Positions 7,985 to 30,928 of a DNA stretch of 64,000 bases are shown here, piece by piece. The position numbers and the translations under genes are program-made. The first letter of the stretch is position 1. Each line of letters opens with the position of its first letter. Location: assembly GCA_003134995.1 (NCBI GenBank), contig PLDC01000013.1, positions 1 to 64,000 on the forward strand, read 5' to 3'. The notes under the pieces are model-generated. The model saw only the letters and a list, made by a program, of their open reading frames with translations. It searched no databases and had not been told where the DNA came from. Source of the DNA: Acidobacteriaceae bacterium. GTDB lineage: Bacteria; Acidobacteriota; Terriglobia; Terriglobales; Acidobacteriaceae.

Positions 7985-8102
7985 ACGGATGCAAAGGAGC
8001 GGGGTCCGAGAGCATTCTCTCGAAATCCCTCTTGTTCCTCCCACCTTCGTTTGACTGGTGTTCTCAACCCTCCTAAGATGAATTTCCGCGTTTAAAATTT
8101 CT

Positions 8103-10889
8103 ATGATTGGGCAGACCATCTCGCATTACCGCATTACCGGCCAGCTTGGCAGCGGCGGGATGGGGATCGTGTACGAGGCGCTGGATCTGGATCTGGGGCG
8201 CAAGGTGGCGCTGAAGTTTTTGCCGCCGCAGCTTTCTAGCGACCAGAATGCTCTCGACCGTTTTCTTCTGGAGGCGCGCACTGCCTCGGCGCTGAACCAT
8301 CCTAATATCTGCACTATTTATGCGGTCGAGAAGGTGCAGCTTGAAAACGTGGGCCAACAGAACAGCGTTCAGCAGTCGTTCATCGCGATGGAGTTGCTCG
8401 AGGGCGAGACGCTGGACCGGCGGCTCGGTGCCGGCGCGATGCCGCTGGATCGCTTGCTTGATTGGGTTATCCAGTTGGCGGATGCGCTCGACGCTGCGCA
8501 TGCCAAGGGAATCATTCATCGCGACATCAAGCCCGCAAATATTTTCATTACGCAGCGTGGGCAGGTGAAGGTGCTGGACTTCGGTCTGGCCAAGCTGGCG
8601 CGTCGTGAGATGGAGATGACAACCATCGGAGCGACGCAGGATTCACCGGCGCCGCTAAATCTCACGAGTCCGGGATCGACCGTGGGCACGATTGCGTATA
8701 TGTCTCCGGAGCAGGCGCGCGGGGAGGAACTCGACACGCGCACCGACTTATTTTCTCTTGGCGTGGTGATCTATCAAATGGCGACTGGACGCTTTCCGTT
8801 TACCGGCGCCACTTCTGCTGTTGTGTTCCACGCCATTCTAGAACTTGATCCGATTCCGGCGATGCAGTTGAATTCAGCGCTGCCGCCGAAGCTCGATGAG
8901 ATTATCGGGAAGGCTCTGGAAAAAGACCGCGACCTGCGCTACCAATCGGCTGCCGATCTTCGCGGCGATCTGAAGCGGTTGAAGCGGGATATAGAGTCGG
9001 GCCGAAAAGTTACCCCTTCGGCGGCGGGAATTTCGGAAAGCGGCGCGAGCGCGACGACTTCCGCTCCGGCCACAGTTTCAGTTGCGTCCGGGGCTTCGCA
9101 CAGTTCCAATCAAACCTCCGCGGTCGTTGCCGCCGCAGGCCGCCACAAGCTGGGGACTGGCTTGTTCGCGCTGGTTGGCCTGGTCGTACTGCTGGCCGCC
9201 GGCTACGGCGTTTACTCGCTGATTTCGGGCAAGCACGCGCGCCCCTTCGAGAATTTCTCGGTCACCAAGGTGACCGAAACCGGCGATGCGGTATACGCGG
9301 TGATCTCGCCCGACGGCAAGTACATCCTGAGCCTGGTGAGAGCCAAGAGCGACAACGGTCTGGCCAGCCTGTGGCTGCGCAATGTTCCCACCAACAGCAT
9401 GACGCAAGTGCAGCCTCCGGCCGACGTCTGGTACGCGCAAAGCGCTCTGAGCTTCTCGCCTGACGGCAATTATCTGTATTTTGTGCGCAGCGATCCGGGA
9501 ACGCCCGCCCTGAAGTTCCTGTATCGCGTGCCGCTGCTGGGCGGCACACCGGAGAAATTGGCCGAGGACGTGGATTCCAGCGTCACGTTTTCCCCGGACG
9601 GCCGGAAGTTGGCCTTCCTGCGCTACGGCAATCCCGATCCAGGCAAGTTCCGGCTGATCGTGCGCTCCGTCGATAATGGCCAAGAGACCGTGCTCGCCAG
9701 CGGTCCGAACAGCCAGGGACTTTCCGATCCCGCATGGTCACCCGACGGCGAGACGATTCTGTGTGTCGTATCTCAGCCCAGCGATGCTGTGGGCGGATTG
9801 ACGGCGGTGGACGTAAAAGCCGGGCAGCAACATTTGTTCCTGAGTTCCGCCGACTATGTCCTCTCGCCTGCCTGGATGCCGGATGGCCACGGCCTGCTGC
9901 TTCTGGATGTTGGTTCTGCTTCGAATTTCACACGACCACAAATCGTCTTCGCCTCCTACCCGGAAGGAAAGCTGAGTCCGGTTACGCGCGATACCAACAG
10001 CTATTCCTCCCTGAGCGTGGGCTCAAACGGCCAGGTGCTGGCCACCGTGCTTCAAGAAGACCATTGGAACCTCTCGATGATGTCAGCCACGCTGGACGCG
10101 GTCGAGGCACGGCCCATTGGTCCGGCAAACCCCACAACTAACTTCACCTGGACACACGATGGCCGGTTGGTCTACGACAAAGACGGCACTTTGAGTTGGA
10201 TCAATCCGGATTCGGGGGCCAAGGGCGTGTTCCCGACTGAGCCAGACTCGACCAGCGGCGATCCCTCGGCATGCTCGGACGGCCGCTATCTCGTCTTCGA
10301 TCACCACACCCGCGCGGCCAACGGCAGCCGGAACATCTGGCGCGCCGATGCCAGCGGTGGAAACCTCAAGCAACTTTCGAATGGGAAGCTCGCCGCGTAT
10401 CCGGTGTGTTCTCCGGATGGGCGATGGGTTTATTACCTCGATCTCACGACCGGACATGTGATGCGGGTTCCCATTGATGGCGGGGCGTCGCAACAGGTCT
10501 CCGACTTGCCCGCCCGTCAATTCGACATTTCTCCCGACGGCAGCACGCTTGCATTTGCGACCATCGATCACGCGAATGGTCATGAGGAAAAACTGGCGGT
10601 GGTCGAAGCCGACACGGGTAAAGTTCGCACGTTGCTCAAGTGCGACAAGACTACGTTCGAGCTGATTCGGTACACGCCCGACGGCAAGGCGCTGGTTTAC
10701 GTCTTCCGTGAGAAAGGCGTCGAGAACCTGTGGCAACAACCTCTGGATGGTTCGCCGGGAAAGCAGCTTACCTCATTCAAGTCGGAACACATCTACGACT
10801 TCCACTGGTCCTTCGATGGCAGCCGGCTGGCGCTGGTGCAGGGGCATACCGATTCCGATGTCGTGCTGATGAGGGACGCGAAGAATTGA
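8103..10889 (+). CDS. Membrane Ser/Thr kinase with extracytoplasmic beta-propeller
   Basis: In this 928-residue protein the kinase domain (8 to about 290) has [11 protein letters not shown] (G-loop), Lys38, HRDIKPAN near 139-146, DFGLAK near 158-163 and SPEQARG. A Ser/Ala-rich linker follows, then one transmembrane helix (about 353-374, [20 protein letters not shown]). The rest (385-928) is a chain of TolB/PD40 repeats with the typical SPDG turns ([44 protein letters not shown]). This is the common Acidobacteriota kinase design, in which the propeller outside the membrane probably senses a ligand and the kinase signals inside. The substrate is unknown. The gene has its own transcription unit. 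Confidence 0.93.
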
Positions 10890-15638: not shown

Positions 15639-16994
15639 CTACGCCACGCCCCGCGCTTTGATGACGGGCGTGATCGGGTTTTCCACCCCCGGTGTTGGAC
15701 GCTCGGAATCCTTGACGATGCGTGCTGCCAGCGGCTTCAGCCACAGCAATGCCATGAACGCAGCAACCAAGTCGCAGGCAATCATCGCCCAGAAGACTTT
15801 GGTCCAGGAGCCGGTCCTTTCAAACAGCCAGGCGGCACCGGGAGCCGCGAACAGCGTGGCCAAGCCCTTCGCTGTGTAAACGATGCCGTAATTGGTGGTG
15901 GCCCATTTTCTCCCGTAGAGGTCGGCGGTGATCGAAGGGAACAACGAGTAGATATTGCCCCAGGCAAAGAAACACAGGCCGGAGAGCGCAATGAACCAGA
16001 TCGGGCGGCTGATCAGCTGCAGAAGAGCGAACACGGCAATCGCTTCCAAAATGAATGAGATGAATAACGCGTTCTCGCGGCCGATATGATCGGAGATCCA
16101 TCCCCAGAACGGCCGAGTCAGACCGTTTAAGATGCGGTCAAGCTCAATGGCAAGCACGAGCGCACTCATGCCAAACGCCACGATAATTTTATCGACGTGG
16201 TAAGACACCGCCATGGGGCTGAGCTGCACAGTCACCACGATGCCGCCGAAGGCCAGCATCGTCATCATCAAGTAAACGACGTAAAACGAGGGTTGGCAGA
16301 GCATCTCCCATGGCGTCAGGTCGATGGCCGATACCGTTAACTTGGATTTGATTTTCGCTTCTTTCTCTTTCCATCCCGGTGGTGTCCATCCCGCTGGTGG
16401 CTTAGCGAGGAATAAGGCTGCGGCTAAAACAACAACGCCTTGGATAGCTCCCCAAAAGATGAACGTGTGCTGGTAGCCAGAAGCTTTCAGCATGTTGGAA
16501 ATTGGAATAATCGTCAGAGCCGTTCCAACGCCATAGGCGCCCGCAGTCAGTCCGACGCACAAGCCGCGATAATCCGGGAACCACTTCAAGGCGTTGCCGA
16601 TCGTTCCGCCATAAACCATTCCGGCGCCCACGCCAGCTAATCCATACCAGAAGTACAAGCCGCCGAGAGTCTCAGACTGGCCAGAGCCTATCCAGCCTAA
16701 GCCCACGGCGATCGCGCCCACGCCGAGCATCAGGCGCGGCCCGACGCGGTCGACCAGATAGCCTTCGAATGGTACGAGCCAGGTCTCAAGCGCGATGAAC
16801 AGCGTGATCGTCCATTGCACATCGACCAGCGTGGCATGCAGGTGGGATTGAATGGGTTTGGTAAAGACGGTCCAGGCATATTGCAGGTTGGCGACCGCCA
16901 TCATGGCGAAGATGCCTGCGACTAACTGGATCCAGCGGTTCGGAATTCGGGAGGGATGGATCAGAGACTCTGGAGTTGCCGTGGATGCAGCCAT
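15639..16994 (-). CDS. MFS carrier of the oxalate/formate antiporter type (OxlT-like)
   Basis: The 451 residues start at MAASTATPESL (ATG 16994, GGAG upstream); 12 transmembrane segments are visible, beginning IQLVAGIFAMMAVANLQYAWTVF-type and with the MFS loop motif DRVGPRLM after helix 2. The layout and sequence (YSLFPSITADLYGRKWATTNYG, YTAKG) match the OFA family. Lys376 in YTAKG sits where I recall the substrate-binding Lys355 of OxlT. It would exchange oxalate for formate, or import oxalate, across the inner membrane. A 19-base palindrome shared with the gntR promoter lies 136 bases upstream, tying it to the 2-oxoacid oxidoreductase operon. The substrate is inferred from family and context. 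Confidence 0.85.
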   Translation of the reverse strand: MAASTATPESLIHPSRIPNRWIQLVAGIFAMMAVANLQYAWTVFTKPIQSHLHATLVDVQWTITLFIALETWLVPFEGYLVDRVGPRLMLGVGAIAVGLGWIGSGQSETLGGLYFWYGLAGVGAGMVYGGTIGNALKWFPDYRGLCVGLTAGAYGVGTALTIIPISNMLKASGYQHTFIFWGAIQGVVVLAAALFLAKPPAGWTPPGWKEKEAKIKSKLTVSAIDLTPWEMLCQPSFYVVYLMMTMLAFGGIVVTVQLSPMAVSYHVDKIIVAFGMSALVLAIELDRILNGLTRPFWGWISDHIGRENALFISFILEAIAVFALLQLISRPIWFIALSGLCFFAWGNIYSLFPSITADLYGRKWATTNYGIVYTAKGLATLFAAPGAAWLFERTGSWTKVFWAMIACDLVAAFMALLWLKPLAARIVKDSERPTPGVENPITPVIKARGVA

Positions 16995-17036
16995 TCTTTG
17001 GATCTCCGTGACGGCGCGTTTAACGTGGAGCGCTAC

Positions 17037-17059
17037 TGCCGGAACTACAGGGTCCGGCA
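17037..17059. promoter_or_regulatory. Small inverted repeat in the carrier leader
   Basis: TGCCGGA at about 17037-17043 pairs with the closing TCCGGCA near 17053-17059. It lies between the shared operator and the carrier start, so it may be in the mRNA leader. No function is assigned. Confidence 0.3.
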
Positions 17060-17129
17060 TAGTCGTACGACTGCACCCATGCGGGCGTGAACTCGAGAAT
17101 CTTTGGTTCGATAAAGGTGTCCTGTATAC

Positions 17130-17148
17130 TGGTCCACTCATCGAACCA
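17130..17148. promoter_or_regulatory. Predicted GntR operator, site 2 (carrier promoter)
   Basis: The sequence TGGTCCACTCATCGAACCA matches 17 of 19 bases of the site at 27044-27062 read on the other strand (TGGTCCACTTATCGGACCA), and the match continues into CTTG. It is a palindrome with TGG-CC half sites, as bound by FadR-type regulators. It sits between the divergent carrier gene (-) and the 17273 gene (+). Confidence 0.65.
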
Positions 17149-18067: not shown

Positions 18068-18391
18068 TTAATCTTCCAGATCCTGGCGGAAAACTGGCTG
18101 TGAGGGATCGAGGCTTCCATCAATCACGGCCACGAGCAGGTTGCCGTAGGCGTTCGTGGCTTCGGGCAGCGAGGCGTAACCGCGCTCCCTTTGAAGCGCG
18201 CCGCTTTCAGAATAGACGAGTGTGAAATAACGGCCGGAGGAATACTGCAGTTCGAGCAACTTGTTCGGCATGTCGGGATCGCCTTCTTGTCCCAGCACAT
18301 CCATTAAAGCCACAGTCCAATGGCGGCCTTTGGGGTCGGTGACGACCTCGCGCTCAACGAACTGCCACTCGTCCATGCTCCACAACGGCAT
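18068..18391 (-). CDS. Small protein of unknown function, last gene of the oxidoreductase operon
   Basis: The 107 residues are mixed alpha/beta (WQFVEREVVTDPKGRHWTVALMDVLG, LLELQYSSGRYFTLVYSESG, ATNAYGNLLVAVIDG). No family is recognised. It begins 2 bases after the receiver-domain gene and is therefore almost certainly translated from the same mRNA. It has no signal peptide or cysteines. It converges on the 17273 gene with 12 bases between the stops. Confidence 0.65.
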   Translation of the reverse strand: MPLWSMDEWQFVEREVVTDPKGRHWTVALMDVLGQEGDPDMPNKLLELQYSSGRYFTLVYSESGALQRERGYASLPEATNAYGNLLVAVIDGSLDPSQPVFRQDLED

Positions 18392-18393
18392 AT

Positions 18394-18756
18394 TTATTCC
18401 AGCAACTGCGCCAGCGCTCTTGCAACCTGAGTCCCGGTGAATGGTTTTGGAACCAGCAACACTTTTTGCGCTTTTCTGGAACGCAAGCTGACATCCGCTT
18501 TTTCCGGAGTGTCGCTGATGATTACGACCGGAAGTTCGGCGTGACTGGGATGGCTGCGCACGCTGTCGAAGAGCGCCTCGCTCATCTCGAAGGCGGAGCA
18601 GTCGAGCACGAGCGCGTCGGCGCGCTGCTCCTGAATCAACTCGTTGACTGCCGTGCTGTATCCCGCCGAGAGCACCGCATAGCCGAGATCGCTCAGCGAA
18701 AAGGTGAGTAGCTCGGCGATCTCCGGCGTGTCGTCGATGAGCAGGATGCGGCGCAA
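18394..18756 (-). CDS. Stand-alone response-regulator receiver domain
   Basis: The 120-residue protein is a complete REC domain and nothing more: acidic pair Asp8-Asp9 (LIDDTPE), phosphoacceptor Asp52 (LVLDCSAFE), Ser81 (IISDTPEK) and Lys104 (VPKPF). Single-domain receivers act by protein contact. It lies 7 bases after the 130-residue gene and 2 bases before the next, inside the oxidoreductase operon; no histidine kinase is nearby. A regulator of one of the operon's enzymes or of the AAA+ ATPase is possible but unproven. Confidence 0.85.
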   Translation of the reverse strand: MRRILLIDDTPEIAELLTFSLSDLGYAVLSAGYSTAVNELIQEQRADALVLDCSAFEMSEALFDSVRSHPSHAELPVVIISDTPEKADVSLRSRKAQKVLLVPKPFTGTQVARALAQLLE

Positions 18757-18763
18757 TCGCGGG

Positions 18764-19156
18764 CTACTTCTTGCCGGGCCCGGTGCCGGGCAGTCGAGGC
18801 TTCTTGGCCGCGCACGGTTCCAGATCCATGACCCATATGCGCCCGCCGGCAGTGTAGTAAGCGCGTTGATCGTTCTCGATCATCGCACCCCAAGCCTCCA
18901 GCGTGCGCATGGCAAATGTGAAGCCTTCGAAGTTGTTGCGCGCGTGATCTAGCACTTCGTTGGTGTGCCAGTTGTTGGTGAGAATCGCGTCCCCCGGGTG
19001 CACGCGCAGCACAGTGTAAAAGCGATCGTAAGCCGCTTCCGGCCGCACGTCGCGCGTGGCGCCGCGCTTCTTGCCCTCAGTGACTATGTAACTTTCCTGT
19101 CCTTCGGGCTCGACTTCCGGGTCACCAGGATTAGTAGTGGTCGTTTCCTTGATCAT
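18764..19156 (-). CDS. Operon protein of unknown function (130 aa)
   Basis: The start ATG (19156) overlaps the stop of the beta-subunit gene as ATGA, so translation is coupled to it. The N-terminus is polar and disordered (MIKETTTTNPGDPEVEPEGQ), followed by a folded part with YDRFYTVLRVHPGDAILTNNWHTNEVLDHARNNFEG, AMRTLEAWGAMI and IWVMDLEPC, and a basic Pro/Gly tail. I recognise no family. Tight coupling to the catalytic subunit suggests an accessory or assembly factor for the oxidoreductase. Confidence 0.72.
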   Translation of the reverse strand: MIKETTTTNPGDPEVEPEGQESYIVTEGKKRGATRDVRPEAAYDRFYTVLRVHPGDAILTNNWHTNEVLDHARNNFEGFTFAMRTLEAWGAMIENDQRAYYTAGGRIWVMDLEPCAAKKPRLPGTGPGKK

Positions 19157-20217
19157 ACGGTCTCCGCTACGGCCGTGGCTTCTGCTGCCGAGGCCATGTT
19201 GACAAGGTTTTTCGCATCCGCGGCGTGGATCAATGCCTCGGGCAGTTCGACTCCCATCATGCGCCATTGCTCGTTGGCGAATTTCTGCAAGGTGGCGATG
19301 TGCTCGGCGTGAAGATGGCCGAAGCGTCCTTGCAACTTCAGGTACTCGGATACCGGGCGCATGCTCGCGGGACGGAAGCTGTAATCGAAAGCGCGCTTCT
19401 CAGGATTCCACTCCCACATAGGATAGAGCCCGCATTCGACGACCAGTCGGCCGAGATCGATCGAGCGCGGCGTCTCGTAGACGAAGCCCTTCTGGCAGGG
19501 CGTGTAGACCATCAGGTACGCGGCGCCTTTGTGATTGAGTCCCTTGCGAACTTTGTTCATCAAGTCGATGGGATAGCCCACGCTCGCGGTCGCCACGTAA
19601 CAGTGCGGATGGCCAGCCGCCATCATGCGCGCGAGATCTTTGGGGAACAGTTTTTTGCCTTCTGGAACTAGCGGGCCGGGAGGCGAAAAGGTTGTCATGC
19701 CGCCATAGGGCGTGCGCGACGACGCCTGGATGCCGGTGTTTGCGTATTGCTCGTTGTCGTAGCAGATAATCAGGCAATCGTGATTGCGATAGAGCGCGCC
19801 GGAAATCGACGCGAGGCCGATATCGGACGCGCTGCCGTCGCCGGCCTCACAAATAATATTTGGGAACTTGCCCTTCCACTTGCCCTTGCGGATCATGGCT
19901 TCATACGCCGCCGCCACGCCCGCTGTAAAGCTGCCGGCGCTTCCGATCTGCGTGTGCGCCCACGGCACGTTGTAAGGCGTGCACAAGTACGAACTGTTCG
20001 CGACATACATGCAGCCGGTCGGTCCGACGAGGATGGTGTTGTCGCCGGCGGCTTTGCTCGTCATCCGGTATTGGATGGACGGGCCGCAACCCGCACAAGT
20101 GCGGTGACCGGGGACAAACGGCTCGCTCGACGGTAGTTCAGGGTTAAAGAAACGCGCTCCCTGGTTCGGGCTGCCGAGAATCGGCAGCAGCTGCCGTTCA
20201 ACTTCTATGGTTGCCAT
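19153..20217 (-). CDS. 2-oxoacid:ferredoxin oxidoreductase beta subunit (predicted oxalate oxidoreductase)
   Basis: The 354 residues form a PorB-type subunit that binds thiamine diphosphate and a [4Fe-4S] cluster. Visible are GHRTCAGCG (Cys41, Cys44), Cys69 in GPTGCM, Cys241 in TPCQKGF, and the TPP/Mg motif GDGSASDIG (126-134) with YDNEQYANTG (153-162). This subunit performs decarboxylation of the 2-oxoacid and passes electrons to ferredoxin clusters. The start has GGAG 8 bases upstream. It sits 37 bases after alpha and overlaps the next gene. Pyruvate or 2-oxoglutarate enzymes share the fold; the oxalate assignment rests on the alpha subunit and neighbours. Confidence 0.92.
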   Translation of the reverse strand: MATIEVERQLLPILGSPNQGARFFNPELPSSEPFVPGHRTCAGCGPSIQYRMTSKAAGDNTILVGPTGCMYVANSSYLCTPYNVPWAHTQIGSAGSFTAGVAAAYEAMIRKGKWKGKFPNIICEAGDGSASDIGLASISGALYRNHDCLIICYDNEQYANTGIQASSRTPYGGMTTFSPPGPLVPEGKKLFPKDLARMMAAGHPHCYVATASVGYPIDLMNKVRKGLNHKGAAYLMVYTPCQKGFVYETPRSIDLGRLVVECGLYPMWEWNPEKRAFDYSFRPASMRPVSEYLKLQGRFGHLHAEHIATLQKFANEQWRMMGVELPEALIHAADAKNLVNMASAAEATAVAETV

Positions 20218-20254
20218 ATGAATTCTCCAATCGCGGGCCTAAGACCCTGAACTC

Positions 20255-21463
20255 TTATTCTTCGAACCCAACCCAGTGGGTGCGCTTTTCGATCTTCCCA
20301 CGCCGCTGCGCATCCAGCATTTTTTCCGTCATCCAATAAAATTCTTTCAACACGATGGCCTCACCGCCCATGCCAGCCATGAATGACATCACGAGCGGCC
20401 GCTGCTGGCTTTCATAGAGAGCGGCGGTGACCTCGCCATACAGCACGCCACCGCTGCTGACGCTGCCGAGGCCCATGTTGGTCTCGATCACGCCGACTAC
20501 TTTGAACTTGCTGAGAACTTCGCGCACGCGCTCGGTCGGATACGGCCTGATGGTTCGCAGCCGTACCAAGCCGACTTTCAAGCCGCGGTCGCGCATGTGC
20601 TGAATTGCGAACCGCGCTGTCACTGCATGGGCGCCTTGCAGGAAAAAAACCACTTCGGCGTCATCGGTCATGAACTCTTCGATCCACGGATCGTATCTCC
20701 GGCCGAAGATCTGCGCGAACTCTTCGTGCGCCTGCTCAATCACGGCCATGGACTCTTCCATGGCGCGCGCACGCTCGAGCTGCAGCGGCGGACCCTGCTC
20801 GGGCATGATCTGCGGGCCGTGCGACACAGGGTGCCGCGGATCGAGCGGGTACGGATGCTTGTACGGCGGCAGGAATTCGTTCACCTGGCCCTGGTCGGGC
20901 AATTCAACGTCACCCGTGATGTGCGAGACGAAGAAACCATCCTGACAAACCATCTGGGGCAGAAGCACGCGCGGGTCTTCGCCGATGCGGTAAGCGATGA
21001 TGTGGTTATCGAACGCTTCCTGCGCATCGCAGGACCAACCCATGATCCATCCCATGTCGCGCGTCGAGAGCGCGTCGGTGTGCTCGGAGCCGAAGTCGCC
21101 CGGAGGATCGAGCGTGCGGTCGGCGATCATCATCTGCACCGGCATGCGGCTGCCGGAGATCGGCGAATAAAGTTCGTAGGCGAACTGCACGCCGACTCCC
21201 GAGCTGCCGGTGAAGACGCGCGCGCCGCTCGACGAAGCTCCATGCGAGATGCTCAACTGCGAGTGCTCGCTGTCGGCGACAATATATTCGGCATCGAGTT
21301 CGCCGTTCGCAACCATCTGCGCAAGGGCCATCATCGTCGCCGTGTAAGGCCGAATGGGGTATGCCGCAATCACATCGACGTCGGCATATTTTGCGGCCTG
21401 CGCCGCGGCGACGCAGCCGTTGATTCGAACTGTTTTCTTTTTTCCTGCTGTAGCCGTTGCCAT
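20255..21463 (-). CDS. 2-oxoacid:ferredoxin oxidoreductase alpha subunit with oxalate-type motif
   Basis: The 402 residues start at MATATAGKKK (ATG 21463, GGAG 5 bases upstream; a GTG two codons earlier is possible). Domain I carries YPIRPYT (35-41): Arg38 replaces the Thr of the usual YPITP motif of pyruvate enzymes. Then come FTGSSGVGV and DRTLDPPGDFG (115-125), where pyruvate enzymes have a different loop. From memory both features match Moorella oxalate oxidoreductase alpha, in which an arginine and a mobile loop bind the second carboxylate. The C-terminal domain (about 260-390) has VFFLQGAHA and ETNMGLGSVSSGG. It pairs with the beta subunit. Predicted reaction: oxalate to 2 CO2 plus 2 electrons. 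Confidence 0.92.
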   Translation of the reverse strand: MATATAGKKKTVRINGCVAAAQAAKYADVDVIAAYPIRPYTATMMALAQMVANGELDAEYIVADSEHSQLSISHGASSSGARVFTGSSGVGVQFAYELYSPISGSRMPVQMMIADRTLDPPGDFGSEHTDALSTRDMGWIMGWSCDAQEAFDNHIIAYRIGEDPRVLLPQMVCQDGFFVSHITGDVELPDQGQVNEFLPPYKHPYPLDPRHPVSHGPQIMPEQGPPLQLERARAMEESMAVIEQAHEEFAQIFGRRYDPWIEEFMTDDAEVVFFLQGAHAVTARFAIQHMRDRGLKVGLVRLRTIRPYPTERVREVLSKFKVVGVIETNMGLGSVSSGGVLYGEVTAALYESQQRPLVMSFMAGMGGEAIVLKEFYWMTEKMLDAQRRGKIEKRTHWVGFEE

Positions 21464-21476
21464 ATTCACTCCGATT

Positions 21477-23309
21477 TTAAATGTTCTTTGCGGGCCGGTC
21501 TCCGAGGTTCATCAGTTCTTGCGCCTGCCGTCCATGCAATCCCGGCGAGATCGCGAACGCGGTATCCATTCGAACTACGCCAGTATCGAAGTCCAGCTCG
21601 GGCACGCCTTCAAGGCAGCCAGTTGGACACTCTTCGATGCATACGCGGCAACCCTTACAGTAGTCGACGAGAATCTTGTAAAGGCCGTTCGACCGCTCTG
21701 GGCGCGCGATGCACGGCTCGGGACAAACGAGATAACAGTTGTCGCAGGCATTACAGGTGCCGCAACTGAAACAGCGTCCGGCCTCCTCGACTGCCTGCTC
21801 TTCCGAAAATGCCTGGATCACTTCGTCCTGCGTCTTGCGTCGGCTGGTTGGCGGCAGAAGTTCCTGCTGCACGCGCGGGAAGTGCGGGAAGTACGTCATG
21901 TTCATGCGATTCAAATCGAAGATGACGTCGACGGGGATGGTGCGGGTCTGCAGCTTTTCACCGCGCATCACCTTATCCAGATTGAAGGCGACGCGCTTGC
22001 CATCGCCGACTGCGTTGACGACCATCAACGGCTGACCTGCACCGAGTTGCACGATGTCGCCTGCGGCAAAAAAGTTCGTGTCGCCGAGGCGTCCGAACTT
22101 GTCGATCTTGATGGTGCCGCGCTCGGTCTTGAATTCAGCGGGCAACCATGCGAGCGACGAATGCTGACCGACAGCGATAATCACGTTATCAACGGCGAAG
22201 CGCTGAGCGGGAGCCTGCCGATCGACTGTGATCGGCGAAGCATTGATTGCTCCAGAAAATTTCGCCGGATGCAGTTGCAGAGCCTCAACCTTGCCTTCAC
22301 CAATTACCGCGGTGACGGCCAGGCCGTGCAGCAGTTCCACGCCCTCTTCCATCATGTCGTGCAGGTCTTCGGGGACACACGGCAACTCTTGAGGGTTGCC
22401 TTCCACCGTGATCATCGTTACTTCAACCGCGCCTTGGCGCAGCGCTTCGCGGGCGCAATCGATAGCAGTGTTTCCTCCGCCGATCACGGCGACGCGAGCG
22501 CCGATCTTTACCTTGGACGTTCCCATGCCGATATCGCGCAGGAAGGGAAGTCCGTAAAGGACGCCGGTTTTATTTTCGCCTTCGGCTTTCACGCTGTTCG
22601 GTTCGGTGAGTCCAACGGCCAGCACGCAGGCGTCGTAATTCTTTTTCAGGTCGTCCCAGGTAACGTCCTTGCCGACTTCTACGTTGGTCTTGATTGTGAT
22701 GCCAAGTTGTTCGAGGCGCTCGATCTCGCGATCGAGAACGTCTTGAGGAAGAACCCAGTCGGGAATGCCGCCGCGATTGAGACCGCCGGCCTTCGGAGAT
22801 TTCTCCAGGATCGTCACTGCATAGCCGAGCCGCGCGAGTTGATACGCGGCGCTGTGTCCGGCGGGACCCGAACCAACGACCGCGACTTTCTTGCCGTTCG
22901 ATTTTCCGGCTTTGACGACATCGTTGGTGAGCGCTTGTCCCAGATCGCCGAGAAAGCGCTCGACTGCGCGAATCGAAATCGCCTCATCGTACTTCCCGCG
23001 ATTGCAAGCCTGCTCGCACGGGTGGTAACACACGCGGCCCGTGACCGAAGGGAACGGCATGTCTTCCTTGATGAGCGCGTAGGCGTCCAGATATTTGCCG
23101 CGCTTCACCAAGTCGAGATAGCCCTGAATTTTTTCGTTGGTTCCGCAAGCGTTGTTGCAGGGTGGAAGCTTGTCGCGATACACCGGCCGGATGGCGCGCC
23201 AGTTGCCGGTTGGGAACAGGTCTTGGCCTTTTTCCTGCGAGGGTGCTGGAGTGATCCCGGCGAATGGGACTTTAAGCCAATCGGGGATGTGTGTGTTTTT
23301 TGTCGACAT
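21477..23309 (-). CDS. GltD-like FAD/NAD(P) oxidoreductase fused to a two-cluster ferredoxin domain
   Basis: The 610 residues contain, in order, an N-terminal Fe-S helical domain (Cys51, Cys55, Cys94, Cys98, Cys102), an FAD site (GSGPAG, 146-151), an NAD(P) site (GGGNTA, 277-282), a second FAD contact (FFAAGDI, 413-419), and a C-terminal ferredoxin with two 4Cys sets (513-533, CFSCGTCNACDNC; 551-565, CKGCRVCIEECP). The first part is the glutamate-synthase small-subunit fold; the last is the delta subunit of oxoacid:ferredoxin oxidoreductases. Placed between gamma (10-base gap) and alpha (13-base gap), it probably moves electrons from the oxidoreductase to NAD(P)+ without free ferredoxin. No glutamate synthase large subunit is nearby. 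Confidence 0.92.
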   Translation of the reverse strand: MSTKNTHIPDWLKVPFAGITPAPSQEKGQDLFPTGNWRAIRPVYRDKLPPCNNACGTNEKIQGYLDLVKRGKYLDAYALIKEDMPFPSVTGRVCYHPCEQACNRGKYDEAISIRAVERFLGDLGQALTNDVVKAGKSNGKKVAVVGSGPAGHSAAYQLARLGYAVTILEKSPKAGGLNRGGIPDWVLPQDVLDREIERLEQLGITIKTNVEVGKDVTWDDLKKNYDACVLAVGLTEPNSVKAEGENKTGVLYGLPFLRDIGMGTSKVKIGARVAVIGGGNTAIDCAREALRQGAVEVTMITVEGNPQELPCVPEDLHDMMEEGVELLHGLAVTAVIGEGKVEALQLHPAKFSGAINASPITVDRQAPAQRFAVDNVIIAVGQHSSLAWLPAEFKTERGTIKIDKFGRLGDTNFFAAGDIVQLGAGQPLMVVNAVGDGKRVAFNLDKVMRGEKLQTRTIPVDVIFDLNRMNMTYFPHFPRVQQELLPPTSRRKTQDEVIQAFSEEQAVEEAGRCFSCGTCNACDNCYLVCPEPCIARPERSNGLYKILVDYCKGCRVCIEECPTGCLEGVPELDFDTGVVRMDTAFAISPGLHGRQAQELMNLGDRPAKNI

Positions 23310-23319
23310 GTAATCCTTC

Positions 23320-23967
23320 CTAAACGGCCACTGGATTCAGCGGCATGATCTGTAAGTGTTCGAGTGCCATATGAAATGCGGTCTTGTTCGCGATCATGGG
23401 CTCGATGGTTTCCACCTTCACGATGCCCGTAGTCTTGACGACCGCGGCGATGAGCGGAGCAGCGATATCGGGCGCAATCGATTTGTTGCGCTCGGCGGCG
23501 CCTTCGGTCGAAAGACGGTCGAGACCAAGTTCGCCCAGTCGGTAGTAGAGCCATTTGTGATCGGCTAAATGCGCGGCATCGACGCAGACAAGTTGCGCAA
23601 GCCGCTCCGCGCCGGGCACGAAGCGAATCATGTAATCGGGCGTGTAATGCGTGTTGATCACCAGCGTTCCGCCCGGAGGCATGCCGCGCATGTAATCCCA
23701 ACCCTTGACCATGGTGCCTTCGACGAGAACGACGATGTTGGGGTGGTCGTTTTCGTAAGTCAGTTCGTTCTCGAGGATCTGATCGCTCACGCGGCAATAT
23801 TTGCGCGTGGGAGCGTTCGTGCGGTCGGGATTATCAACGTAGTTTTCCATCGCCTGCGCGTACTTGCCCTCGATGCGGGCGGACGCGGAAATGGAATTGA
23901 CGATGTCGCGGCCTTCTTTGTCCATGATGATGCCGCGCGTCCAAACTGTGAGTTCCGTGTAAGCCAT
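23320..23967 (-). CDS. 2-oxoacid:ferredoxin oxidoreductase gamma subunit
   Basis: The 215 residues start at MAYTELTVW (ATG 23967, GAGG 7 bases upstream). The gamma fold is visible: WTRGIIMDKEGRDIVN at the place of the family's GRGGQG loop, KYAQAMENYVDNPDR, CRVSDQ, NIVVLVEGTMV, and LVCVDAAHLA. The usual glycine loop is replaced, as I recall for oxalate oxidoreductase gamma. It has no cluster cysteines; those are supplied by the fused downstream protein. It is the first of the four enzyme genes, 39 bases after the AAA+ ATPase gene. Confidence 0.85.
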   Translation of the reverse strand: MAYTELTVWTRGIIMDKEGRDIVNSISASARIEGKYAQAMENYVDNPDRTNAPTRKYCRVSDQILENELTYENDHPNIVVLVEGTMVKGWDYMRGMPPGGTLVINTHYTPDYMIRFVPGAERLAQLVCVDAAHLADHKWLYYRLGELGLDRLSTEGAAERNKSIAPDIAAPLIAAVVKTTGIVKVETIEPMIANKTAFHMALEHLQIMPLNPVAV

Positions 23968-24006
23968 AATCAAACCTCGTCGTTACAAAGTTGCTTAGAA
24001 CTTTAC

Positions 24007-26268
24007 TTAGTCAGATCCATCTGGGCACAAAGCCGCAGTCTTATCGGCCAAAGCGCTCGCTGATTTCAATTGCTCGTGATCACAATGCTCTGGATCGAGA
24101 ACCGCCAGGAAATCGTTTCGCAAAACCGTGAAGGGCGCGCGACGGCGGCCATTCTGAAATTCTACGATTGCAGAGAGCGTCGCCTTCTTGCACAGGCTTT
24201 CGATGTCGGCGCCCGTGCAGCCATCCATTCGGACGGCGAATTCTTCGAAATCGACATCGGGCGCGAGCGGTACACGGCGGCAACAAAGCCGCATGATTGT
24301 CGCGCGCTCTTCCGCGCTGGGCTTGGCGAACGGGAGTATATAGTCGAAGCGCCCGCTTCGCAACAGCGCTGGGTCGATGCGCTCGGCACGATTGGTCGCC
24401 GCCAGCAGGATCACGCCTTTGACATCGCGCAAGTTGTCGATCTCACGCAGAAGCTGGCTGAGAATTCTTTGATATATATCACTGCCGAATTGATCGGAGC
24501 CGAACTTCGGAGCGATCGCGTCAATCGTGTCGAAGAACAGGATGCAGGGCGCGGTCCGTCTCGCCTTCTTGAAAACTTCACGCAGCGCTCGTTCGGATTC
24601 GCCCAACCACTTCGAATACAGTTGCGGACCGTCGATAGCGATGAGCGGAACTTGTTTTTCACCGGAGAGAGCGCGCGCCATCGCCGTCTTTCCGGTGCCC
24701 GAAGGGCCGGCGAACAAGATGCCGCGGGGCGGAGCGAGGCCAACCTGCTCGTAAATCTCATCGTGCATGTGCGAGTGCTCGATTACGCCGTCGAGCAAGC
24801 GCTTCACCTGGTTGAGACCCCCGATGGATGCGAACGTCGAACTGCTCTTCTCGATAAAAAATTCGCGGGTCGCGCTGGGCTCGACTTCTTTTAAGCCGGC
24901 GAGAAAATCTTCGCGCGTGACCTGAAGCGACGCGAGATCAGCAGAGGCAGCGCCGTCTGCTGCGAACGGAACGGCTGAGAGAAAGCCGCGCAACGCAATC
25001 ATGCCAACTTCCTGGCCGAGCGCCTCGAGATCGGCTCCGACGAATCCGTGAGTATGCTCTGCGATCTCATAGAGGTCGACGTCGGGCGCCAGCGGCATGG
25101 CCCGCGTGTGGATTCTTAGAATTTGCAGCCGGGCTTGCGTGTTGGGAACGCCGATTTCTATTTCGCGATCGAAGCGGCCCGGACGGCGTAGCGCCGGATC
25201 CAAAACTTCGGGAATATTTGTCGCGCCGATTACGATGACCTGGCCGCGAGCGACAAAACCATCCATCAAACTGAGAAGCTGAGCCACGACACGCTTCTCT
25301 ACTTCGCCCGCCACATCGGTGCGCTTGGGGGCGACGGCATCGATCTCGTCGATGAAGAGAATCGCGGGGGCGTGCCGTGCCGCTTCCTCGAACACCTCGC
25401 GGAGTTTAGCTTCACTCTCTCCGTAAAACTTGCGCATGATCTCAGGGCCGTTGAGGTGAATGAAGTGCACACGGCTTTCGGCCGCGACGGCGCGAGCCAG
25501 CAGGGTCTTGCCTGTGCCCGGCGGCCCGTACAACAGCACGCCCTTGGGCGCGAGAATTCCCAGGCGCTCGAAGATGCGCGAATGCTTCAGCGGCAGTTCG
25601 ACCATTTCCCGCACTCTTGCGACTTCACGCTCCAGCCCACCGATGTCTTCGTAGGAAACTGACGGCGCGCGTGCCGCCGTTTGCTCGCCTTCGACAACGC
25701 GAATGTCGGTACGCGGCCCGATCACTACAGGACCCGACGGAATCGTGCGCACGACCTGGAAGTTCACCGCTTTAGCAAACGTTGGAACACGCACGACCGA
25801 GCCCGCAATGACCGGCACATCCAAAAGATCTTCGAGCATGCGGTCGGGTGCGATAGTCGCGGGCGCGGCTCCTATCCACAGCGGGGCGAGGCGCACGGCG
25901 ACGGCCTGCTCACGCTCGATCAGCGCTACCGTCACTTGTTCCTGTAATCCGGCACTGCAGTTGCTGCGGATCGTGCCGTCGATCTGAATCATGCCTTCGT
26001 GTTGTTCGTCAGAAACATCGACTCGCGCGACGCCCAGCGTTCCGCCGGTGATTTTCAGTACGTCGCCAGCCCGGGCACCGAGTCGCCGCAGATCGGCCGG
26101 CGCCAGCCGCGCGATGGCGTGACCCACATCTTCGACGCGCGACTCAGCCACGCGGAGCGTGAGCATTGCGCTGGAAGGCGTTGGAGTGGTTTCCGTCATG
26201 GCGTGACCAGCAACCTGCTTTTGGCGGGCGAATGCATCGACGAGCGTCACCGTGTTCTGCTTCTCCAT
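24007..26268 (-). CDS. CDC48/p97-type double AAA+ ATPase
   Basis: The 753 residues show the full CDC48 plan: an N domain (about 35-195; LTLRVAESRVEDVGHAIARL), D1 (Walker A GPPGTGKT 248-255, Walker B FIDEID 305-310) and D2 (Walker A GPSGTGKT 521-528). The D2 Walker B reads FFDTID, with Thr581 in place of the catalytic glutamate, so D2 may bind but not hydrolyse ATP. CDC48 proteins unfold or remodel proteins. In bacteria they are uncommon. It lies between gntR (54 bases) and the gamma subunit (39 bases), so a role in assembly or turnover of the oxidoreductase is likely. The start may be 26268 or the ATG at 26199; three TTGATC repeats adjoin the first. Confidence 0.93.
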   Translation of the reverse strand: MEKQNTVTLVDAFARQKQVAGHAMTETTPTPSSAMLTLRVAESRVEDVGHAIARLAPADLRRLGARAGDVLKITGGTLGVARVDVSDEQHEGMIQIDGTIRSNCSAGLQEQVTVALIEREQAVAVRLAPLWIGAAPATIAPDRMLEDLLDVPVIAGSVVRVPTFAKAVNFQVVRTIPSGPVVIGPRTDIRVVEGEQTAARAPSVSYEDIGGLEREVARVREMVELPLKHSRIFERLGILAPKGVLLYGPPGTGKTLLARAVAAESRVHFIHLNGPEIMRKFYGESEAKLREVFEEAARHAPAILFIDEIDAVAPKRTDVAGEVEKRVVAQLLSLMDGFVARGQVIVIGATNIPEVLDPALRRPGRFDREIEIGVPNTQARLQILRIHTRAMPLAPDVDLYEIAEHTHGFVGADLEALGQEVGMIALRGFLSAVPFAADGAASADLASLQVTREDFLAGLKEVEPSATREFFIEKSSSTFASIGGLNQVKRLLDGVIEHSHMHDEIYEQVGLAPPRGILFAGPSGTGKTAMARALSGEKQVPLIAIDGPQLYSKWLGESERALREVFKKARRTAPCILFFDTIDAIAPKFGSDQFGSDIYQRILSQLLREIDNLRDVKGVILLAATNRAERIDPALLRSGRFDYILPFAKPSAEERATIMRLCCRRVPLAPDVDFEEFAVRMDGCTGADIESLCKKATLSAIVEFQNGRRRAPFTVLRNDFLAVLDPEHCDHEQLKSASALADKTAALCPDGSD

Positions 26269-26322: not shown

Positions 26323-27030
26323 TCAAAACTTATCAAGCACGATCTCTTCAACGTCTTCAATATGTCGCCGCATCGCTGCTTTTGCAGCCTCGGCATCGTG
26401 GCGCTTGATCGCAGCCATGATGCGCCGGTGGCCAGCGAGCGACTTCTGCGCGCGCCCGTCCACTTGCAAAGAGCGTTCGCGGGTGTCGCGCAGCAGATCC
26501 ATGAGAATGTCAAGCACCTTCAGCACAACACTGTTGCCGGAAGCGAGCGCGACGCTATAGTGAAATTCGGCATCTTCGGCGACGGCAGCTTCGCCCTTCA
26601 TCTGCTTCTGTTCCTGCCGCCGCAGAATGTCTTCCATCTCAGAAATCTCGTCGGCAGAGGCGTTCTTAGCGGCGCGCGCGGCTAGCGGCGGTTCGAGCAT
26701 CTTTCTAAAATCCAGAAGTTCGCTTACCAGTTCGCGGCGCCGCTTCAGCGCGCTGGCAAAAGGATTGGTCACCAACTCGGAGGAAACTTCGCGAACGATT
26801 GTGCCTGCTCCCTGGCGAGGCTCGACGAGACCCATCAACTCAAGGCCACGAATCGCATCTCGAATGGAGCTGCGGCTCACGTGCAGCATCTCGGCCAGTT
26901 CCCGCTCCGAGGGCAGTTTGTCGCCGGGGCGCAGCTTTTTCAGGATCAGGCGTTCGATCTGCTGCGCGACTTCCTCGTAGACTTTGTTCCTGCGGATTAC
27001 GTCAAAGTCCGATTTGACCGCACCTATCAA
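26323..27030 (-). CDS. FadR-type GntR transcriptional regulator
   Basis: I chose the TTG at 27030 (GGAG 6 bases upstream), giving 235 residues; the longer frame upstream runs through the operator. The winged HTH (about 15-85) has KLPSERELAEMLHVSRSSIRDAIRGLELMGLV and the wing RQGAGTIV. The rest is an FCD ligand domain with the metal-site pattern (RKMLEPPLAARAA, AEDAEFHYSVALASGN, GHRRIMAAIKRHDA, MRRHIEDV). FCD proteins sense small carboxylates and usually repress. A palindrome lies 14 bases before the start and a near copy lies at the carrier promoter, so it probably controls itself, the oxidoreductase operon and the carrier. Confidence 0.9.
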   Translation of the reverse strand: MIGAVKSDFDVIRRNKVYEEVAQQIERLILKKLRPGDKLPSERELAEMLHVSRSSIRDAIRGLELMGLVEPRQGAGTIVREVSSELVTNPFASALKRRRELVSELLDFRKMLEPPLAARAAKNASADEISEMEDILRRQEQKQMKGEAAVAEDAEFHYSVALASGNSVVLKVLDILMDLLRDTRERSLQVDGRAQKSLAGHRRIMAAIKRHDAEAAKAAMRRHIEDVEEIVLDKF

Positions 27031-27043
27031 TGTGAACTCCAAG

Positions 27044-27062
27044 TGGTCCGATAAGTGGACCA
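27044..27062. promoter_or_regulatory. Predicted GntR operator, site 1 (gntR promoter)
   Basis: TGGTCC and GGACCA form perfect 6-base half sites with a 7-base spacer. The site lies 14 bases upstream of the proposed gntR start, so binding would block transcription or initiation of the whole operon. Read on the minus strand it matches the site at 17130-17148 at 17 of 19 bases. Confidence 0.7.
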
Positions 27063-27175
27063 GCGAGAGAAGTATACCCCCGCTGTCAAGCCTCTCGCAA
27101 ATATTTTGTGTGGCAGTGAGGAAGCGGCTCTGAATGCCGGCCAACTCGTGAAAGCGCGTGTCTCTCGTGCCGCTC

Positions 27176-28152
27176 TCACGCTTTTCGCTGCGACGCACGC
27201 TCCGCCAACAGCTTCGTGCAACTATACACAGTTCTTGTGTAGGGCATGGTCAAGCCGACGCACTCCCCCAACTCCACGACGGCGCCTACCAGAGCTTCCA
27301 ATTCGATCGGCCGTCCGGCTTCGAGATCCTGCAGCATTGAGGTTTTGTGTTCTCCAACTTTTTCCGCGCCGGCAATTCGCTGATCGATGGTCACCGGCAA
27401 CTCCATGCCTAACTTGTGGGACACGCCTTCCACTTCCTGCATGATGTTTTTGATCAGCGCACAAACTCCCGGATCGCGCACCATCTGAACCAGCGTGGCG
27501 CGAGTTAATGCACTGACCGGATTTAAGGAAGCGTTGCCCAGCACCTTTACCCAAATCTCGTGGCGAATGCGAGCAGTAATGGGAGCGCGCAAGCCGGACA
27601 CGACGAGCGCTTCCGCTATGCTGCGGCAGCGGTCGGAACGGCTTCCGTCCGGTTCGCCGAGTGAAATGCGATTGCCCTCGATGTGTTGAATCACTCCGGG
27701 CGCCGTAATCTCGGTCGAAAAATAAACGATCGATCCAAGCACGCGTTGCGCTTCAATGGCCGATGCAATCACGCCCGCGGGATCGACTCGCTCCAAACGT
27801 AATCCCTTCCATTCGCCGTCAAAATTCTGAAAGTACCACCAGGGAATTCCATTCTGAGTGCTGACGACTGTGGTCTCCGGACCTAACACGGGTCTTAACT
27901 GAGGCGCGAGTTGGGGCAAGCCGTGCGCCTTCACTCCGAGGAAGACAAAGTCTACCGGCCCAACTTCTTCGAGCGAACCGACGACTACCGGGCGCGCCAC
28001 GAAATCGCCTTCTGCACTCTTCACCTGCACACCATGATCCTGCATGGCGCGGAGGTGCGGCCCGCGCGCGAAAAGCGTGACATCGAATCCAGCTTGCGCC
28101 ATACGCGCACCGATGTAAGCTCCAATTGCTCCCGCACCCGCGATCAAAAATT

Positions 28153-28156
<4 letters not shown>
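27176..28156 (-). CDS. Ketopantoate reductase-like (PanE/ApbA family) dehydrogenase
   Basis: The 326-residue protein has the Rossmann NADP site GAGAIGAYIGARMAQAG (7-23), the family segment FVFLGVKAH, QNGIPWW, and the C-terminal helical domain with KVLGNASLNPVSALT (the usual catalytic Lys and Asn/Ser). Its start overlaps the ligase stop as ATGA. True PanE makes pantoate; here, coupled to an oxalyl-CoA-synthetase-like ligase, a role in reducing a 2-oxo acid such as glyoxylate or a derived semialdehyde is an alternative. A 145-base gap with the operator separates it from gntR. Confidence 0.85.
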
Positions 28157-29664
<1,508 letters not shown>

Positions 29665-29766: not shown

Positions 29767-30555
29767 CTAGTGAACCGTGACAAAAAAATACGCGCTCATA
29801 AGGAGGCCCACGCCAATCACGACGGCTCGCATCTTTCCGGGCTCGGCCTTTTGCGCGTAGCGGGCGCCGAACCATCCCCCAACCAGGGAACCTGCGACCA
29901 TCACGGCACACTGCGGCCACAATACTGCTCCGGCCACGATGAAGGTGATCACGGCCGCAGCATTAATTGCGACAGCCAGAAGCGTCCTGATCGCGCCCAT
30001 GGCATGGATGTCACGCATCCCAAGCATCGATAGCATGGCGAGCGTCACAAAACCGATCCCGGCGCCAAAGTATCCACCATAGACAGAGAGTAGTAGTTCT
30101 GCGACGGAACTTACCACGATCGCCTGCCACGATATTTTTCGCAGATCATCGACGACCGCAGTCTTGCCAGCGAACGAGCGGATCGAATTGCCGAAGGCGA
30201 ACAGCAAAGTGCCACCCAGCAGCAACCACGGGACGAGCCGCAAAAAAGTGTGCTGCGGAGTCTTCAGCAGCAGCAGCGCACCGGCCCAACCTCCGGCAAT
30301 GCTCGTCACCAATAACGGGACTAATACCCGAAGCGGTGCGTTCAGCCGTTTCAAATAAGCGAGCGTGCTGGCCGCCAACCCCGGCCAGAGCGCGACCGTG
30401 TTCGTCGCATTGGCGGCCACGGCGGGGATCCGAATAAAAAGCAGCGCTGGGAAAGAGATGAAACTCCCGCCGCCCGCCACTGCGTTCAAGGCGCCGGCGA
30501 TTCCAGCCGCGATGAGCAGGAAGATGGCTTGGCCGAAGTGCAAATCCATACGCAT
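29767..30555 (-). CDS. TSUP (TauE/SafE) family anion transporter
   Basis: The 262 residues start at MRMDLHFGQ (ATG 30555, GGGAG 10 bases upstream). About eight membrane helices are visible, with the family signature GALNAVAGGGSFISFPALLF in the first half and GGYFGAGIGFVTLAML in the second. TSUP proteins carry sulfite, sulfonates or small organic anions. It is followed by a 102-base gap before the ligase gene upstream in the window order and shares its strand. A role with C2 acids is possible from context only. Confidence 0.87.
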   Translation of the reverse strand: MRMDLHFGQAIFLLIAAGIAGALNAVAGGGSFISFPALLFIRIPAVAANATNTVALWPGLAASTLAYLKRLNAPLRVLVPLLVTSIAGGWAGALLLLKTPQHTFLRLVPWLLLGGTLLFAFGNSIRSFAGKTAVVDDLRKISWQAIVVSSVAELLLSVYGGYFGAGIGFVTLAMLSMLGMRDIHAMGAIRTLLAVAINAAAVITFIVAGAVLWPQCAVMVAGSLVGGWFGARYAQKAEPGKMRAVVIGVGLLMSAYFFVTVH

Positions 30556-30928
30556 CAGCGACAAACTCCCGAGAAGAACCCGCACGCAGCGGCGGTGCAA
30601 ACGAGGAAACAATCTATCAGGAATTTGAAGAGGGAGTCTCCTGCCGCGGCCGTTCCCATGCACCTAAATTGCCACCTGTCCCGCCGCCCCGAAAATGCTA
30701 TAGGTATCGAACGCGTAGTGACGTGCATCAGAAAAATTTCTTGACAGTATGCATTTTTATGTGGTACACCCGCCCGGTCGAGGTAACTGGTCCGCTTTCC
30801 AGACCTCACCCAAATTCATTCGCAGATTTAGAAGTTTCGTCGCCCGAACGGACAGGGTAGCGCGCGGGCTGCTCGTTCGTGTGCCTTGAGGGAAGGCCCG
30901 CTATGCAGATTATTCCGGAGAAGACACA
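30556..30928. other. Divergent control region between TSUP transporter and porin
   Basis: This 373-base region has no convincing gene. It holds a TTGACA element at 30741-30746, without a convincing -10 at the right distance, a weak copy of the GntR operator at 30788-30806, and GGAGAA before the porin ATG. Confidence 0.5.
30788..30806. promoter_or_regulatory. Weak candidate GntR operator, site 3 (porin promoter)
   Basis: TGGTCCGCTTTCCAGACCT keeps the GGTC-N9-GACC framework of the two stronger sites and matches site 1 at 14 of 19 positions. It lies about 123 bases upstream of the porin start, comparable with the carrier site. Confidence 0.35.

Follow-up and report, generated by a model that had tools for sequence, protein, structure and literature searches.

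A Predicted Oxalate Oxidoreductase of Acidobacteriota with Its Ferredoxin Domain Fused to a GltD-Like Flavoprotein

Introduction

A 64,000-nucleotide stretch of an Acidobacteriaceae genome (positions 1 to 64,000 of contig PLDC01000013.1, assembly GCA_003134995.1), referred to as a whole as the window, carries a cluster of minus-strand genes for a predicted oxalate oxidoreductase (OOR). The catalytic core of this enzyme is that of OOR; its electron outlet is new. The two-cluster ferredoxin domain, or delta domain, is fused to a flavoprotein of the GltD kind, and we read the locus, at odds of roughly two in three, as an OOR passing electrons to nicotinamide adenine dinucleotide (NAD+) or its phosphate (NADP+), served by an OxlT-like carrier for import and accompanied by a parallel route of assimilation through an AAE3-type ligase and a PanE-family reductase. 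Taken by parts, oxalate is very probably the substrate and, given oxalate, NAD(P)+ is quite likely to be the main acceptor.

The Catalytic Core

The genes for the gamma subunit (23320–23973, 217 residues), the flavoprotein-delta fusion (21477–23309), the alpha subunit (20255–21469) and the beta subunit (19153–20217) lie side by side on the minus strand, in agreement with the original prediction, made from the sequence alone, that four subunits are encoded together here; an internal ATG in the gamma gene gives the coordinate 23967 used in that prediction. Among proteins of solved structure, alpha, beta and gamma each find their best match in a chain of Moorella thermoacetica OOR (PDB 5c4i, 5exd, 5exe), with E-values well outside chance (8e-154, 3.4e-116 and 5.3e-43, respectively). 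Alpha, a thiamine diphosphate (ThDP) subunit, scores 516 bits to 5c4i_A compared with 237 for the best pyruvate-type chain; beta, which has ThDP and one [4Fe-4S] cluster, scores 391 bits to 5c4i_C against 203; and gamma scores 151 bits to residues 14–210 of 5c4i_B against 37. The alignment with Moorella OOR and pyruvate enzymes that had been proposed as a check comes out in favor of the OOR chains for all three subunits. Alpha also exceeds the NCBIfam cut-off for OOR (NF045791, 589.7 bits versus 500).

The residues around the substrate tell the same story. The arginine of the YPIRPYT motif (Arg38 when counted from an internal ATG) aligns with Arg31 of the Moorella enzyme, and the loop DRTLDPPGDFG is identical to the Moorella loop that holds Arg109, Asp116 and Phe117; both likenesses had been pointed out in the original prediction. 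According to PMC5020499, Arg31 in YPIRP provides the oxalate binding site of Moorella OOR, Arg109 is shared with the enzyme studied there, and Arg31 acts together with Asp116 in a “bait and switch” involving a plug loop. Across 77 of 77 aligned alphas, namely that of the window and those of 76 of 80 loci (the others lying below the 90% coverage rule), the I-R-P-Y of the motif does not vary, nor do D-R and L-D-P-P-G-D-F-G in the loop. All 70 of the beta rows aligned retain the four cluster cysteines. These 80 loci (L016–L095), on which the OOR locus counts given here are based, are the best 80 of 159 loci found.

In a maximum-likelihood tree of 76 alphas, the window alpha groups with 5c4i_A and 52 further OOR rows in a single clade with a support of 100/99, and outside it stand eight rows of a sister family, termed OOR-II below, and 14 pyruvate-type rows. 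A placement of alpha with the pyruvate enzymes, which had been named as the outcome that would speak against an OOR, is not what the tree gives. Within OOR, 13 Acidobacteriota-type rows and seven Actinomycetota rows make up a further clade (99/99), where the nearest neighbor of the window alpha comes from Candidatus Sulfotelmatobacter; a genome of the same genus as the window's (G176) carries the same locus. The host itself probably belongs to Candidatus Sulfotelmatobacter. The 104 alpha rows collected were reduced to 78 for a quick tree, chiefly by thinning near-identical Acidobacteriota, and two very long rows (second matches in L072 and L075) were then dropped. Because the root is a midpoint root and long rows are found among the pyruvate-type sequences, only the splits of this tree are claimed. 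One of the 13 rows (L079) belongs to a record labelled Myxococcales, whose OOR inside the Acidobacteriota group represents either a transfer or a mis-binned contig. Taken together, the alpha score, the motifs and the common clade with Moorella OOR support oxalate as the probable substrate, which was also the best guess made from the sequence.

The Electron Outlet

One difference from the Moorella enzyme lies in the place of the ferredoxin domain. In Moorella, the two-cluster domain is part of the gamma chain (5c4i_B, 315 residues). The window gamma is without this C-terminal domain, and a two-cluster domain matching OOR delta forms the C-terminus of a 610-residue GltD-like flavoprotein, which carries Fer4_20 and flavin adenine dinucleotide (FAD)/NAD(P) domains (Pyr_redox_2) of the GltD/Nfn kind. 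The delta subunit of the original prediction is therefore present as a ferredoxin domain, although its fusion to the flavoprotein had been missed. Both CxxCxxCxxxCP cluster motifs of the domain are intact in the 16 rows printed.

The fusion is found in 46 of the 47 acidobacterial, actinobacterial and myxococcal loci (38/39 in Acidobacteriota, 7/7 in Actinomycetota and the single Myxococcota-labelled locus), as opposed to none of the 33 loci from other or unplaced phyla. The sole Acidobacteriota locus without it, L037, starts at alpha, and the alpha tree requires only one change of fusion state. The contrast is less than perfect in three betaproteobacterial loci (L067, L072 and L075), which have a distant GltD-like gene (32–33%) some kilobases downstream. 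In these loci the OOR is followed by a second alpha-like protein, the distant GltD-like protein and then a gene for a CDC48-like ATPase; the second alpha-like and GltD-like genes perhaps encode another electron-transfer enzyme linked to OOR.

As to the acceptor, the second nucleotide site of the flavoprotein reads ITVE in the window versus YRR in five solved relatives, and all 39 full-length fusions retain its Glu303. In folds of this kind, an acidic residue at such a site as a rule favors NAD+ over NADP+. The conserved glutamate in place of Arg-Arg suggests NAD+ as the acceptor, and we lean, on this reading of the sequence, toward NAD+ rather than NADP+. There is a precedent for NAD linkage in the superfamily, since the phenylglyoxylate dehydrogenase PadEFGHI is named NADH-dependent in NCBIfam. 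That enzyme differs in its substrate, and the window proteins score far below its cut-offs (PadG 259.8/700, PadI 175.6/700, PadE 38.2/300). The domain order of the fusion is that of the PRK12771-type GltD-like proteins with a ferredoxin domain (NF009410); the window flavoprotein differs from these in that its 504.3 bits fall just under the cut-off of 516 and in that its gene is locked between those of OOR gamma and alpha. Among the records with this type of flavoprotein, only that of Actinomadura sp. NBRC 104412 (L063) is not titled as a metagenome-assembled genome (MAG).

Import and Assimilation of Oxalate

An OxlT-like carrier (15639–17141, minus strand) and an AMP ligase resembling oxalyl-coenzyme A (CoA) synthetase, of the AAE3 type (28153–29664, minus strand), were both found near the enzyme, as had been anticipated. 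The carrier scores 208 bits to OxlT (8hpj) compared with 131 to the lactate transporter 6g9x, and it passes the oxalate/formate model TIGR04259 (454.2 versus 335). It also keeps both Arg272 and Lys355 of OxlT, which bind oxalate according to PMC10070484. The ligase scores 427 and 410 bits to the oxalyl-CoA synthetases 6qjz and 5ie0; the first non-oxalate ligase follows at 247. Its gene overlaps that of a PanE/ApbA-family reductase (27176–28156, minus strand), a candidate oxalyl-CoA reductase by its NCBIfam and Pfam family membership and by its gene position. In Methylobacterium extorquens AM1, oxalyl-CoA reductase activity has been measured for PanE, which interconverts oxalyl-CoA and glyoxylate (PMC9485241). 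The likeness of the window to the Methylobacterium route consists of an AAE3-type ligase gene and a PanE-family gene, the link being one of family membership and gene position. A difference is that the window genome (5.62 Mb in 29 contigs, estimated to be 100% complete) has zero matches to frc and no oxc over the cut-off (the best reaches 157 bits versus 739.4), and the classical frc/oxc route was rejected for it on this account. Unlike Moorella, the window host has haem-copper oxidases, with three COX1-family genes in its genome.

In a side observation, a class-V aminotransferase, with glyoxylate-type relatives among its matches, precedes the AAE3 gene in three loci (L118:2550-3704, L119 and L136), and an 80% homologue lies elsewhere in the window genome (G000:C29:210920-212023, L137), with one TAG inside the match.

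The route that we propose would begin with the entry of oxalate through the OxlT-like carrier. Alpha and beta would bind ThDP and oxalate, with Arg38 and the DRTLDPPGDFG loop holding the two carboxylates, and the substrate would be split to two CO2 in a CoA-independent manner. Electrons would then travel from the beta [4Fe-4S] cluster through the two clusters of the delta domain to the fused GltD-like flavoprotein, which would reduce NAD(P)+ for respiration. In the parallel branch, the AAE3-type ligase and the PanE-type reductase may convert oxalate to oxalyl-CoA and on to glyoxylate for assimilation, probably under the control of the GntR/FCD transcription regulator (26323–27198, minus strand; Pfam GntR and FCD) encoded next to them.

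A Sister Family in the Same Gene Slot

It is worth pointing out that the YPIRP motif does not by itself make an OOR. Since a sister family, OOR-II, carries YPIRP too, the motif was rejected as sufficient proof. The OOR-II alphas are 42–45% identical to OOR; in 20 of 20 the motifs read YPIRPYD and NRALDDPGAFG, so that Arg31 and Arg109 are kept and Asp116 is replaced by Ala. The available models do not decide the substrate, with an alpha score of 379.4 bits to the OOR model and 350.5 to PorA. Among 200 sampled genomes of the window's family, 20 have an alpha at E ≤ 1e-90 and six pass the OOR cut-off; 21 places below the cut-off represent OOR-II, 20 of them (L116–L135) in 16 genomes and one in L022. 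In a draw of 297 genomes from the phylum, 11 have a match at E ≤ 1e-100, three of them over the OOR cut-off.

The OOR-II operons run from the FCD regulator through a gamma-ferredoxin fusion, some 390 residues long and with both of its cluster motifs intact, to alpha, beta and the carrier. The FCD regulator is present in 20/20 and the carrier in 17/20 (two of the misses are at contig ends; in L127 the carrier is truly absent within 7 kb), and AAE3 with PanE in 4/20. In L118, from the window's own genus, OOR-II (7311–10807) is flanked by genes arranged as those around OOR in the window, the AAE3, PanE, FCD and carrier proteins being 85%, 74%, 78% and 76% identical to those of the window, respectively. 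This replacement of OOR by OOR-II in the same gene slot is the best evidence for oxalate as the putative OOR-II substrate. Two loci, L022 (5007–7330) and L029 (3885–6206), carry OOR-II in addition to OOR.

Weighing the Reading

Several observations weigh against our reading of the locus. Beta and gamma fall under their OOR cut-offs (NF045792, 443.1 versus 590; NF045790, 174 versus 230), which is also a difference from the Moorella enzyme, and YPIRP occurs in the sister family as well. The carrier just reaches the cut-off for lactate carriers (320.1 versus 320), and its two basic residues are conserved across the whole OxlT family (PMC10070484). AAE3 and PanE are each found upstream in only 7 of the 18 Acidobacteriota loci with at least 9 kb upstream of alpha. 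The preference for NAD+ depends on one residue and a general rule. Finally, all 39 Acidobacteriota records are titled MAG, and for this reason the physiology of these bacteria can only be inferred.

The alternative that survives best, though we think it unlikely, is that the enzyme only detoxifies oxalate or burns it for energy, with AAE3 and PanE serving some other purpose and no assimilation taking place. The absence of AAE3/PanE from 11 of the same 18 loci, and from the neighborhood of OOR in other phyla at the thresholds used, fits this view. It is opposed by the overlapping or abutting of AAE3 and PanE with the regulator and OOR genes in the window and by the aminotransferase homologue, with its internal TAG, elsewhere in the window genome. 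The carrier (at least 50% identity) is downstream in 18 of the 23 Acidobacteriota loci with at least 6.5 kb downstream. Set beside the counts for AAE3/PanE, this makes the carrier link a strong one and the assimilatory link one that holds for part of the group.

It is less probable still that electrons are bifurcated or shared at the GltD-like subunit, with ferredoxin being reduced alongside NAD(P)+ in the manner of Nfn-type and related enzymes. An NfnA and the GltD-type portions of large multi-cofactor enzymes are indeed among the best solved relatives of the flavoprotein, but no gene for an Nfn small-subunit partner is recognised in the cluster, and the acidic residue at the nucleotide site sets the flavoprotein apart from these very relatives. 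A slightly smaller chance goes to a complex whose main substrate is a different small acid, such as glyoxylate or one of the related C2–C3 oxoacids. Alpha shares only 57% identity with the Moorella alphas L084 and L091, and the low beta and gamma scores and the existence of a YPIRP sister family point the same way; the oxalate-site residues are nevertheless invariant, alpha belongs to the OOR clade, and an oxalate-type carrier and ligase flank the enzyme. A pyruvate:ferredoxin oxidoreductase of the usual kind that has YPIRP by chance, which would belong to the same superfamily and has a PorA score of 345.8 bits in its favor, was rejected because that score is far under the cut-off of 550, the profiles and structure chains of OOR score higher for all three subunits, and the tree separates the two.

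The CDC48-Like ATPase and Other Genes of the Cluster

Directly upstream of gamma lies the gene for a CDC48/VAT-like AAA ATPase (24007–26268, minus strand; 637 bits to the VCP-like ATPase 5g4g), the single match at E ≤ 1e-60 in the window genome. Such an ATPase is encoded near alpha in 52 of the 80 loci (Acidobacteriota 23, Bacillota 15, Pseudomonadota 5, Methylomirabilota 4, Thermodesulfobacteriota 2, unplaced 2 and Synergistota 1), and the Bacillota loci include those of Moorella stamsii and M. mulderi, where, as in the window, an FCD-type gene is also close to OOR. Ten of the 28 loci without it have at least 6.5 kb upstream (five Acidobacteriota, four Actinomycetota and one Pseudomonadota); the other 18 have less and cannot be judged. 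The second Walker-B glutamate is replaced in the 22 Acidobacteriota copies that cover the site (Thr in 20, Ala in one and Asn in one), whereas 28 of the 29 copies in other phyla keep it. No close CDC48-like copy was found in the 20 OOR-II operons; in two of them, the regulator has as its neighbor a gene for a distant AAA protein, at 32% to the CDC48-like one (L123:12567-14228 and L135:12630-14297). Our guess is that the ATPase remodels or activates OOR. A search for literature connecting oxalate metabolism with an AAA ATPase found none.

In full, the cluster comprises eleven minus-strand genes between 29664 and 18068, no overlap or gap between neighbors exceeding 54 bases, in the order AAE3-type ligase, PanE, FCD regulator, CDC48-like ATPase, gamma, flavoprotein-delta, alpha, beta, hypB, receiver and hypA. 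The operon extent first given, 18068..23967, does contain the subunits; the cluster, however, runs on to 29664, and that range holds three further genes as well: hypB (18764–19156), a small conserved protein present in 34 of 39 Acidobacteriota loci; a single-domain response-regulator receiver protein (18394–18756), whose NCBIfam receiver-type matches are all below cut-off; and hypA (18068–18391), another small conserved protein, in 32 of 39. The three come after beta in most Acidobacteriota loci, and the search used did not find them in the loci of other phyla, L079 excepted. The models of hypB and hypA (mean predicted local distance difference test scores of 69.6 and 74.6) gave zero PDB fold matches at E ≤ 0.001. 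The OxlT-like carrier comes after hypA, with one plus-strand open reading frame between. Directly upstream of AAE3 is a gene at 29767–30663 for a putative TauE/SafE-type permease; its relatives (64–84%) are found near OOR or OOR-II in L034, L038, L040, L120 and L121.

Place in the Literature and Significance

The idea that an OOR from Acidobacteriota would be new or little described agrees with the titles, abstract openings and passages available. None is reported in the parts seen of the literature naming “oxalate oxidoreductase” (including PMC11045627, PMC13098242 and PMC12188714), and by title and abstract opening, papers on oxalotrophy in Acidobacteria or oxalate in Sulfotelmatobacter have nothing on OOR. 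A search on NAD-dependent oxalate oxidation gave one review and nothing new. PMC12654022 presents OOR as an enzyme that has been identified in some anaerobic bacteria and transfers to ferredoxin. Of two surveys, PMC8062136 states that OOR was left out of consideration, whereas in PMC10192776 Acidobacteria are named on account of oxc sequences and the term “oxidoreductase” is absent from the text. The homology is not unknown to databases, however, since some relatives are named “oxalate oxidoreductase subunit alpha” by JGI.

A wider reading, which we put forward tentatively and at somewhat less than even odds, is that respiring soil bacteria oxidise oxalate by ThDP/iron-sulfur enzymes of two forms, together with an ATPase partner. 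It would have an NAD+-linked OOR arise once, from a delta ferredoxin and a GltD-type flavoprotein, in a line shared by Acidobacteriota and Actinomycetota; OOR-II would be an unrecognised sister enzyme with YPIRP, Ala for the gating Asp116 and the same cluster slot; and the CDC48-like ATPase would be a dedicated partner that OOR has retained in both Moorella and Acidobacteriota.

Oxalate is among the major products of plants and fungi in soil. If our reading holds, uncultured soil Acidobacteriota would oxidise it by a route missed in surveys, gaining NADH directly, and the fusion would be a naturally occurring exchange of electron outlets within the 2-oxoacid oxidoreductase superfamily. OOR-II would then offer a second family of enzymes in which the Arg31/Asp116 “bait and switch” idea could be tested, and the conserved AAA ATPase would have a task in OOR biology that is testable in Moorella.

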